64,000 bases of DNA, taken from positions 124,001 to 188,000 of the forward strand of contig JAIBEX010000021.1 in assembly GCA_019459455.1 (NCBI GenBank), given 5' to 3'. A program made the position numbers and the translations under genes. The first letter of the stretch is position 1; every line of letters begins with the position of its first letter. Shown here one piece after another: positions 9,018-39,316 of this stretch. The stretch is from Weeksellaceae bacterium (GTDB taxonomy: Bacteria; Bacteroidota; Bacteroidia; Flavobacteriales; Weeksellaceae). The notes under the pieces were generated by a model. It ran no database searches and was not told the DNA's origin. It was given only the letters and a program-made list of their open reading frames with translations.

Positions 9018-9331
9018 CCACAAGAAAGACGGCCTGTTGATCTCCGCTCCGGCGGAGGTAGGAAAGTCCGGACACCACAGGGCAGCAAAGCGGGTAACGC
9101 CCGCCGGTCGCGAGATCAGGACCAGTGCAACAGAAAGTATGTATATTAATTTATAGTGAAACCAGGTAAACTCTTTGCGGTGCAATGTTAAGTATATCAT
9201 CAGTTAAGGGCGGCCCGTCCGTTGATGAGGGGTAAACAGCTAAAGCTTTGCAGCAATGTAAAGCGCAGATAAATAACAGGCATTTTCGCTTCGGCGAATC
9301 TACAGAATCCGGCTTACAGTTTTTCTTGTGG
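9018..9331 (+). ncRNA. rnpB: RNase P RNA (bacterial type A-like)
   Basis: The catalytic RNA of ribonuclease P, which trims tRNA 5' leaders. The 5' conserved block GGAAAGTCCGGACACC begins at 9061, and the matching 3' block ACAGAATCCGGCTTACAG spans 9302-9319. Helix P1 is a perfect 10-bp pairing between CCACAAGAAA (9018-9027) and TTTCTTGTGG (9322-9331). AGGGCAGCAAAGCGGGTAAC and GGGGTAAACAGCTAA follow the expected order for CRII-CRIV-type regions. At about 314 bases it is a little shorter than E. coli M1 RNA (377). Short open frames crossing it are spurious. Confidence 0.95.
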
Positions 9332-9346
9332 TTTTTATGATACAGA

Positions 9347-24403: not shown

Positions 24404-24442
24404 GGATACAAATTCAGCTATAAGAAGCGAAGAACAATATTC

Positions 24443-24506
24443 TAGCCCTGATGGAAGCGGCATCCCCGCCGCGGCGGGATACAGCGGACAGCGGGACCGG
24501 ACGTGA
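24443..24506 (+). repeat. Flavobacterial interspersed hairpin element
   Basis: The segment begins AGCCCTGATGGAAGCGGCAT and ends in GATACAGCGGACAGCGGGAC. Between them is a short hairpin, CCGCC/GGCGG. From memory, elements with the same ends and a variable hairpin tip recur in many Flavobacteriales genomes. It lies between the small ORF and nrdA; function is unknown. No reading frame through it looks like protein. Confidence 0.5.
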
Positions 24507-37363: not shown

Positions 37364-37735
37364 GTGGAAGAGCTTCCTCCTGCGGCGGGATGACAGGCTG
37401 GGAAGAACAAAGGAAAAATTCAAAAGGGAAAAGTGGGGAGGCGGCAGCCGAGGAAGCAATCCCGAAGTAGATTCCTTACGTTGGGAGCGGGAAGTTCCGA
37501 CGGTTATCGAGACCCGGCCTACAGTCCATAAGCCAAAAGCCAACCGCCAGCCGCCACCTTACAGCGCTGTCTTTGCGGGGAGGCGGCAGCCAACGAAGCA
37601 ATCCCAAGTTAACCTTGTCCAGGTTTGAAACCCCTGACAAGGTTAGGCAGGATCTTCCAGGACCGGAAGAGGGTAAGAAAATCAGCGGTTGTAAAGAAGG
37701 CAGTTAGCAAGACGCTGCAGGCGGTAAAAGAATAC

Positions 37736-37787
37736 GAAAATTCCAGCCGTTTTACCCCTACCCTAAAGGGAGCCGGCTGGAATTTTC
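37736..37787. repeat. Composite hairpin H1 with conserved 24-nt loop
   Basis: The 14-bp arms GAAAATTCCAGCCG (37736-37749) and CGGCTGGAATTTTC (37774-37787) pair perfectly. The 24-base loop contains TTTACCCCTACCCTAAAGGG, itself with a CCCT/AGGG mini-hairpin. The loop matches the reverse complement of that of the next hairpin, while the arms differ. Confidence 0.85.
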
Positions 37788-37866
37788 ACAAGGAAAGGAG
37801 TAAAAATATCTGCATTTTAACCCGGTCCTGAAGGAAGCCCGCCGATTTTTGCAGGCGCGTGGTGAA

Positions 37867-37914
37867 AAAATCCGAATCACTCCCTTTAGGGCCGGGGTAA
37901 AGGATTCGGATTTT
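37867..37914. repeat. Composite hairpin H2, same loop in opposite orientation, different arms
   Basis: AAAATCCGAATC (37867-37878) pairs perfectly with GATTCGGATTTT (37903-37914). Its 24-base loop (ACTCCCTTTAGGGCCGGGGT and 4 more bases) is, reversed and complemented, identical to the H1 loop at 20 of 24 positions. Confidence 0.85.
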
Positions 37915-38033
37915 CTGTTGGCCTGACCCCGGCTGCAGCCAGCTGCCAAAAGCCAGCCGCCAGCCGCCACCTTACAGCGCTGTCTTTGCGAGGAGCGACC
38001 GCATGGAGGGACGCGGCAATCCCAAAGTAGATT
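37888..38033 (+). repeat. Direct repeat, copy 1 (about 146 bp)
   Basis: From the AGGGCCGGGGTAAAGGATTC part of hairpin H2 to CCCAAAGTAGATT, this stretch recurs 377 bases downstream with only a few substitutions and no indels (38265-38410). It includes the right arm of H2 and a whole REP-like TTGCGAGGAG/GGCAATCCC block. Confidence 0.85.
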
Positions 38034-38221: not shown

Positions 38222-38290
38222 AAATCCGAATCACTCCCTTTTTTATGCTGAGCCTGCCGAAGTAAGGGCCGGGGTAAAGGATTCGGATTT
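38222..38290. repeat. Composite hairpin H3 with a 23-bp insert in the loop
   Basis: AAATCCGAATC (38222-38232) pairs with GATTCGGATTT (38280-38290). The loop equals that of H2 plus 23 bases containing ATGCTGAGCCTGCCGAAGTA, a commonly dispersed element in this group of bacteria, set precisely at the centre of the CCCTTT/AGGG core. Confidence 0.85.
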
Positions 38291-38410: not shown

Positions 38411-39043
38411 CTAACGTTACTTTTTGCCTCTATTAATATTATATTTTTAATGGAATCGGCGATCCGCCCTTAGCGGATTGTCTTGACACAAAAAGTAATC
38501 AAAAAGGTCAAGACTTGGACATTTGCCAATCCATTTTTTATTTTTATTAATGGAATTGGCGAAACTCCTTCGTCGTTTTTTGCTAAAAAGACCAAAATTT
38601 CTTCAAAGAAAACATCCAAAATTGCCTCATCTTTTATATTTTTTTTATGGAATCGGCGATCCGCTTTCGCGGATTGCGCGAGACGAAGATGAGGTGAATT
38701 ATATGCGATTTGTGTCGCGCGTCGGACAGTGGAAGTTTTTCTGTTGCCATAACGACACGAATATTAATAAGAAAAATCCTGTTTTTGCCAATCTGTTTTA
38801 TATATCTTTAGTGGAATTGGCGATCTCGCCTTTGGCGGATTCTTCACGCAAAAATCTCCTATGTCGTTTGGGATTGGTTAATTAAAGAGCCATGTCATTG
38901 ACCAAGTCGAATCTTCGATTTCAGAACGGAGCGAAGCAGAGTGAAGAATCTCTTTTAATGGCATTATGTATTTATAAAAAGCGAGATTAGGCACAGAAAA
39001 AGATCCCTCCTTCGTCGGGATGACACGCAGACACGTCGTGAGG

Positions 39044-39107
39044 AAATACGAATCCCTCCCTTTTTTATGCTGAGCCTGCCGAAGTAAGGGCCGGGGTCAT
39101 GGATTCG
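39044..39107. repeat. Composite hairpin H4, degenerate copy with insert
   Basis: CGAATC (39049-39054) pairs with GATTCG (39102-39107), but the outer stem has mismatches. The loop has the same 23-bp insert as H3. The flanking upstream sequence (GATCCCTCCTTCGTCGGGAT, then GACACGCAGAC) also matches that of H3. Confidence 0.75.
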
Positions 39108-39316
39108 GCTTTTCTGTGGGACTGTCCCGGCCTGCAGCCAACCGCCAAAAGCCAAAAGCCAAAAGCCAAAATTGTGACGCGCTGGTTTTCCATCTTCCAT
39201 CCCCTCACCCTCACCCTCACCCTTAACCTTAACCTCAACCTATGACCCGCATATTATCTTTTCGTCACAAAATATATATTTTTACAGTTTTTTTCACAAA
39301 CATCACAAAAAATCTT

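Follow-up and report, generated by a model that had tools for sequence, protein, structure and literature searches.

The two inverted hairpins H1 and H2, found in the 64,000-nucleotide stretch of Weeksellaceae DNA analyzed here (the window), most likely represent a decayed, gene-less copy of a mobile palindrome of the Bacteroidota that is spread by a hairpin-loop-recognizing DUF559 nuclease, a reading to which we assign a probability of roughly 0.7. The hairpins of this family are associated with DUF559 genes and their arms covary, and DUF559 is probably the agent that mobilizes them. The element would consist of inverted hairpins with the core TTTACCCCnnCCCTRAAGGGAG and arms that are paired but otherwise unconstrained, occurring alone or clustered beside a DUF559 gene.

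The hairpins of the window and their counterparts beside the DUF559 gene

The first-pass annotation of this region described H1 and H2 as perfectly paired hairpins whose 24-nt loops match at 20 of 24 positions once one of them is reverse complemented, and both descriptions hold on re-examination. The H1 arms GAAAATTCCAGCCG/CGGCTGGAATTTTC pair at 14 of 14 positions and the H2 arms AAAATCCGAATC/GATTCGGATTTT at 12 of 12, each enclosing a 24-nt loop, and TTTTACCCCTACCCTAAAGGGAGC differs from the reverse complement of CTTTACCCCGGCCCTAAAGGGAGT at 4 of 24 positions. For loops shorter than 60 nt, H1 and H2 exceed in length every other perfect inverted repeat in the 64 kb, where only eight such repeats of at least 11 bp occur, H3 included. 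When folded as single-stranded DNA, H1 has z-scores of -5.9/-5.7 and H2 of -3.7/-4.1, and the fold of each beats all 200 shuffles on both strands. The sequence CCCTAAAGGG is found in the window at the H1 and H2 sites only, with 0.19 occurrences expected.

Beyond the two hairpins of the annotation, the region contains a degraded hairpin between them as well as H3 and H4 (Table 1). H3 is a perfect inverted repeat of the same family as H1 and H2, and its right flank is common to H2. A sequence of about 22 nt, TTATGCTGAGCCTG(C/T)CGAAGTA, occupies the core apex in five hairpins whose arms differ, which is suggestive of insertion at that point or of transfer from loop to loop by conversion. The intergenic DNA around the hairpin unit is a mosaic of several repeat families. 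A 51-nt direct repeat GCCAAAAGCCAACCGCCAGCCGCCACCTTACAGCGCTGTCTTTGCGGGGAG lies on either side of the unit (37532-37582 and 37945-37995), and four copies of another repeat, (A/G)TGGAAT(C/T)GGCGA, are located at 38450-38830. The latter repeat is followed by short self-complementary sequences that are specific to each copy (ATCCGCCCTTAGCGGAT, ATCCGCTTTCGCGGAT, and others) and is present too in the sister genome G003 (L238).

Table 1. Location of the hairpins and related features; positions are those of the window unless another locus is named.
Feature	Location	Strand	Description
H1 hairpin	37736..37787	+	14-bp arms at 37736-37749 and 37774-37787; core TTTTACCCCTACCCTAAAGGGAGC
H2 hairpin	37867..37914	-	12-bp arms at 37867-37878 and 37903-37914; minus-strand core CTTTACCCCGGCCCTAAAGGGAGT
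Whole three-hairpin unit	37736..37916	-	Gene-less copy of the direct repeat flanking the DUF559 gene of genome G000
Degraded middle hairpin between H1 and H2	37801..37843	+	Relic of hairpin R; boundaries approximate
H3	38222..38290	-	11-bp arms AAATCCGAATC/GATTCGGATTT; core interrupted by about 22 nt (TTATGCTGAGCCTGCCGAAGTA)
H4	39043..39114	-	Imperfect (GAAATACGAATC/GATTCGGCTTTTC); interrupted core as in H3
Apex sequence of about 22 nt	38244-38264, 39066-39086; L239 1144-1164, 1848-1868; L008 1341-1361		
In-frame DUF559 inserts, various Bacteroidota	L213 610-3219 (-); L215; L203 193-3327; L231; L194; L206; L211; L217		

The genome to which the window belongs (G000) is 2.59 Mb in size and contains approximately eight hairpins with this core, whose arms, for example CCAGCCG, CCGAATC, CACGAA, CAGCGG, and CCAACCG, are paired within each copy. 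Its only DUF559 gene (C13:208016-208330) lies 20 kb past the end of the window and encodes a protein of 121 residues that matches PF04480 with an E-value of 3.3e-34. On each side of the gene lies, in direct orientation, a unit of about 250 bp that comprises three hairpins, Q, R, and S. The minus strand of the window from 37681 to 37960 is collinear with this unit. Specifically, H2 corresponds to Q and has the same arms GAAAATCCGAATC, R is degraded, and H1 corresponds to S with the arms AAAATTCCAGCCG. The core of H1 is uninterrupted, whereas both gene-side copies of S carry a 22-nt insert. The H1 arm recurs beside the DUF559 gene at G000:C13:207629, and the H2 arm recurs there at G000:C13:208471 and also at G000:C19:120226. 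Given this collinearity and the shared arms, the element in the window is a version of the repeat found around the DUF559 gene that lacks the gene itself and has partly decayed. In the sister species G001 and G002, the genes downstream of this copy are kept and the upstream intergenic DNA is unalignable, and no clean empty site was found.

Conserved core and free arms across the Bacteroidota

An exact scan for the core ACCCCNACCCTAAAGGGAG in one genome per species, covering 84,980 species, returned at least 118 stretches, and nearly all of those among the matches listed are from Bacteroidota. The flanks of 126 distinct core sites from these listed matches were then compared without selection for pairing. 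The arm complementarity score is at least 8 in 63 of the 126, whereas combining left flanks with right flanks from other sites gives an expectation of 2.2. Most often, the arms directly adjoin the 22-nt core TTTACCCCnACCCTAAAGGGAG, and they pair in a fixed register, with positions 1-9 Watson-Crick paired in 55-84 of the sites, above shuffled maxima of 47-61. Nearly every arm position uses all four pair types (AT, TA, GC, and CG), and the arm sequences vary widely between sites yet covary. The annotation had proposed that the arms are constrained to pair and had suggested a test for covariation in other genomes; that test bears the proposal out, and the unnamed structured element it envisaged proves to be a real family.

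Changes within one Chryseobacterium arm family are for the most part compensated. Covariation is not universal, however, because the 18 copies of one arm family in a single Arenibacter genome have mostly uncompensated changes. There, 30 of 1000 swaps reach the observed pairing value, and almost no covariation is found beyond that from shared ancestry. In the genome G148, two copies of a 110-bp doublet with the structure A-core-A'-B'-core'-B lie at two loci, and homology stops at the doublet edges. The two copies differ by paired substitutions and by one base pair that has been deleted from both arms.

The compensated deletion fits both selection and hairpin-templated correction as the keeper of pairing. 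If correction alone were at work, the palindromes could be passive products of a one-time duplication, in which quasipalindrome template switching keeps the arms paired and the core and DUF559 are inactive. The deletion and the paired substitutions, all from one genome, are the expected trace of such correction, and the uncompensated changes in some arms are also in line with it. A passive origin is nonetheless unlikely, as it leaves unexplained the phylum-wide conservation of the core and the tight proximity to DUF559 and lineage-specific core types described below. Within the interpretation of the hairpins as a mobile element, template switching may still serve as the keeper of arm pairing.

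The hairpins could instead act in the host as bidirectional intrinsic terminators or as another type of RNA hairpin, in which case DUF559 would be an unrelated neighbor. Such a role would be consistent with the strong folding and with the A-tract/T-tract located at the stem base in G000. However, terminator-like sites in the region are not enriched (4 versus 4.9 expected from shuffles), the loop is long at 24 nt, no Rfam family matches the hairpins, and the arms in other genomes are often AT-only. Moreover, only 8 of 148 genomes from the order possess the strict core, which is therefore not a housekeeping signal. A terminator or other host RNA is accordingly very improbable. Elsewhere in the window, Rfam identifies a Flavo-1 sRNA (24440-24502) and an RNase P class A RNA (9021-9332).

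Self-priming fold-back of the core (CCC-TAAA-GGG) was considered as a direct source of the arms but dropped, because ACCCC would then be copied rightward too, which is not seen. In addition, a group of loci from uncultured Bacteroidota (L024, L041, L050, L062, L077, L109, L124, L126, L127, and L134) possess the core ACCCCGACCCTAAAGGGAG with no long arms, followed by RTGTTATKTG, and could represent another type of recombination site. An attC-like identity for these sites in freshwater Bacteroidota was set aside, given that no integrase recurs near the cores and long arms are absent.

The DUF559 nuclease

Unbiased clustering of the ORFs located within 700 bp of the cores yielded DUF559 as the sole recurrent family (7 loci, with all others at 2 or fewer). 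Of the eight DUF559 genes detected across the 8-kb core loci, seven are within 500 bp of a core, and the arrangement of hairpins with DUF559 is also found in Arenibacter, Flavobacterium, Aequorivita, Psychroflexus, relatives of Chryseobacterium, and other taxa. In these genomes, the majority of DUF559 genes lie amid C-run/G-run palindromes. Around 54 DUF559 loci, the hairpins with C/G runs number 129, 71, 9, 4, 2, and 3 in successive 250-bp bins outward, a steep drop beyond 500 bp. By the patterns used, 5 of 56 DUF559 genes have no flanking hairpin. A search of the open-access literature, with subscription journals outside its scope, returned no paper that links DUF559 with palindromic repeats.

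The clades of DUF559 have their own cores, which are CCCTAAAGGG for clade A, CCCCTCCnnnGGAGGGG for clade B, or others. On the DUF559 tree, the A core requires 2 changes compared with 12.7 when shuffled, and the B core requires 4 compared with 16 (0 of 500 shuffles in each case). Within the genus of the window, the genome with an A-type DUF559 has A hairpins and no B hairpins, two genomes with B-type genes carry B hairpins on either side of the gene and lack A hairpins, and a genome that lacks a DUF559 gene has a single relic hairpin. Similarly, in a sample of the family, all genomes with a B gene have B hairpins, and the two with an A gene (G000 and G134) are without them. An A-type DUF559 was not detected in the A-core genomes G031, G070, G148, and G158, so that these genomes require trans mobilization, loss of the gene, or a different agent. 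The B-type genes of G001 and G002 (L251-L254) are flanked by CCCCTCCnnnGGAGGGG palindromes that carry a neighboring hairpin with variable paired arms (GGCAATCCGCCGAAGGCGCGATTG and similar), and therefore free arms may be general to DUF559 elements.

DUF559 is predicted to be a PD-(D/E)XK endonuclease with the Vsr/I-Bth0305I fold. A profile built from A-clade members matches PDB 3HRL as well as I-Bth0305I (3R3P), a mobile-intron endonuclease, the latter with an E-value of 1.3e-4. The fold of an AlphaFold model (pLDDT 83) likewise matches 3HRL (E-value of 6e-7), followed by 3R3P (1e-3) and, further down, Vsr. The acidic residues D65, E76, and D78 are invariant in an alignment of six diverse members of the A clade.

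While the A clade, to which the DUF559 of the window's own genome belongs, is intergenic, members of a sister clade are found inside the long open frames of RecG and MetH and, by inspection, of LeuRS and ValRS. The C/G palindromes that flank these inserts are translated (SPEGE, SSPSGRE), and remnants of them are present at both edges. The RecG frame is continuous but for an insert of about 149 residues, located between positions equivalent to 516 and 519 in 1GM5. The frame of MetH is likewise continuous apart from residues 403-562, with the insert between 752 and 771 of 9SSP. No intein or self-splicing intron was recognized around the inserted DUF559, and the frame of the host gene stays open. 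Judged from sequence, these insertions into housekeeping genes look like the product of mobility.

Membership in a nuclease family does not by itself prove mobility, since the DUF559 protein VsrA of Caulobacter is described as mismatch-repair-like and is proposed to be a Vsr endonuclease tied to cytosine methylation (PMC12907096). By extension, DUF559 could be a host repair or defense nuclease for which the hairpin arrays are regulatory or guard (binding/repression) sites, not mobile cargo. The location of DUF559 genes within hairpin arrays would be compatible with this. However, many genomes have hairpin units dispersed far away from the gene, and in-frame insertions of DUF559, bordered by remnants of hairpins, occur within unrelated housekeeping genes, both of which make a purely host function quite unlikely.

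Proposed mechanism and relation to known systems

Under the interpretation of the hairpins as a mobile element, spread would proceed in four steps. The arms would first allow single-stranded or supercoiled DNA to extrude as a hairpin, as the folding suggests. The cognate DUF559 would then recognize the core in the loop and nick or cut either there or at the target, an activity to which the fold, the invariant acidic residues, and the lineage-specific pairing with cores all point. In the third step, repair would install a copy of the hairpin unit, which may or may not include the gene, at a new site, in the manner of homing endonucleases and REPIN/RAYT. Copying of the unit is indicated by a doublet that recurs at different loci, where homology stops at the doublet edges, and by the in-frame inserts of the sister clade, and repair after cutting by DUF559 is the route that we infer. 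Finally, the arms would drift freely by compensatory change because only their pairing matters, perhaps aided by hairpin-templated (quasipalindrome) correction. If the nuclease recognizes the loop of the extruded hairpin, the arms need only pair, and free arms around a conserved core would give rise to two hairpins with a nearly identical loop and different arms. The annotation had offered an RNA hairpin, a protein-binding cruciform, and a palindrome-targeted mobile sequence as options. The last is now the best supported, with a cruciform-recognizing nuclease as its likely agent, and the RNA hairpin is disfavored.

The element shares with REP/REPIN sequences and their RAYTs (PMC3116915, PMC2817692, PMC3733652) short dispersed palindromes, inverted doublets, palindromes that flank a cognate single-domain enzyme gene, and gene-less copies elsewhere. 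At the two G148 loci, the dispersed unit has the REPIN architecture of two inverted palindromes. By analogy, the element may work like a REPIN system in which a homing-type nuclease replaces the Y1 transposase. Membership in REP/RAYT itself fails on the defining features of partner gene and conserved stems. The REP/RAYT partner is a Y1 (PF01797) HUH transposase, whereas the partner here is a PD-(D/E)XK Vsr-fold nuclease. In REPs the stem is conserved, the opposite of the conserved loop and free stems found here, where arms differ between copies in the same genome, with Arenibacter as the exception. Inspection of H1 and H2 revealed no GTAG or CGTC tag at the base of either hairpin. The hairpins are short intergenic palindromes in REPIN-like inverted doublets, and four Y1_Tnp genes are present in G000, as would be expected of REPs mobilized by a RAYT. 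However, none of the 34 Y1_Tnp loci in 12 core-bearing genomes has a core within 1.5 kb, and this link was rejected as extremely improbable.

Vsr-like homing endonucleases, exemplified by I-Bth0305I (PDB 3R3P), resemble DUF559 in catalytic fold and sequence profile and in the insertion of the sister clade in conserved genes. They differ in that palindromic hairpins flank the gene here and the inserts leave the host frame open, with no intron or intein recognized. The likeness is one of sequence and predicted fold, and homing activity in the present system is putative. Rickettsial palindromic elements are also palindromic repeats able to insert in frame in protein genes; to our knowledge they have no link with DUF559, and the insert described here differs in carrying a nuclease domain. 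In integron attC sites, the outer R boxes are conserved, the inner part is variable, and an integron integrase is nearby. In contrast, the present family has a conserved inner core and variable outer arms, and no integrase family recurs near the cores. The Caulobacter VsrA shares the Pfam domain and fold but differs in that the available portion of its description mentions no palindromes (PMC12907096). A study of Cardinium MITEs contains no endonuclease or hairpin link (PMC9769881).

There is a sizeable chance, about an even one, that the element deserves its own class of mobile DNA, in which the loop is the recognition sequence, the stems are free of sequence constraint, a cognate Vsr-fold DUF559 is responsible for spread, and one lineage inserts in frame. 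If the proposed explanation is correct, much of the repetitive intergenic sequence of Bacteroidota (CCCTTTAGGG and CCCCTCC..GGAGGGG repeats) could be traced to an origin and assigned an enzyme, and a testable substrate would be available for DUF559, so far a domain of unknown function. A system in which the stem sequence is free and pairing alone is kept would also allow selection on DNA hairpins to be separated from hairpin-templated correction. Overall, the element would represent a further enzymatic route to REP-like repeats, beside the Y1 RAYTs and the MITEs derived from insertion sequences.
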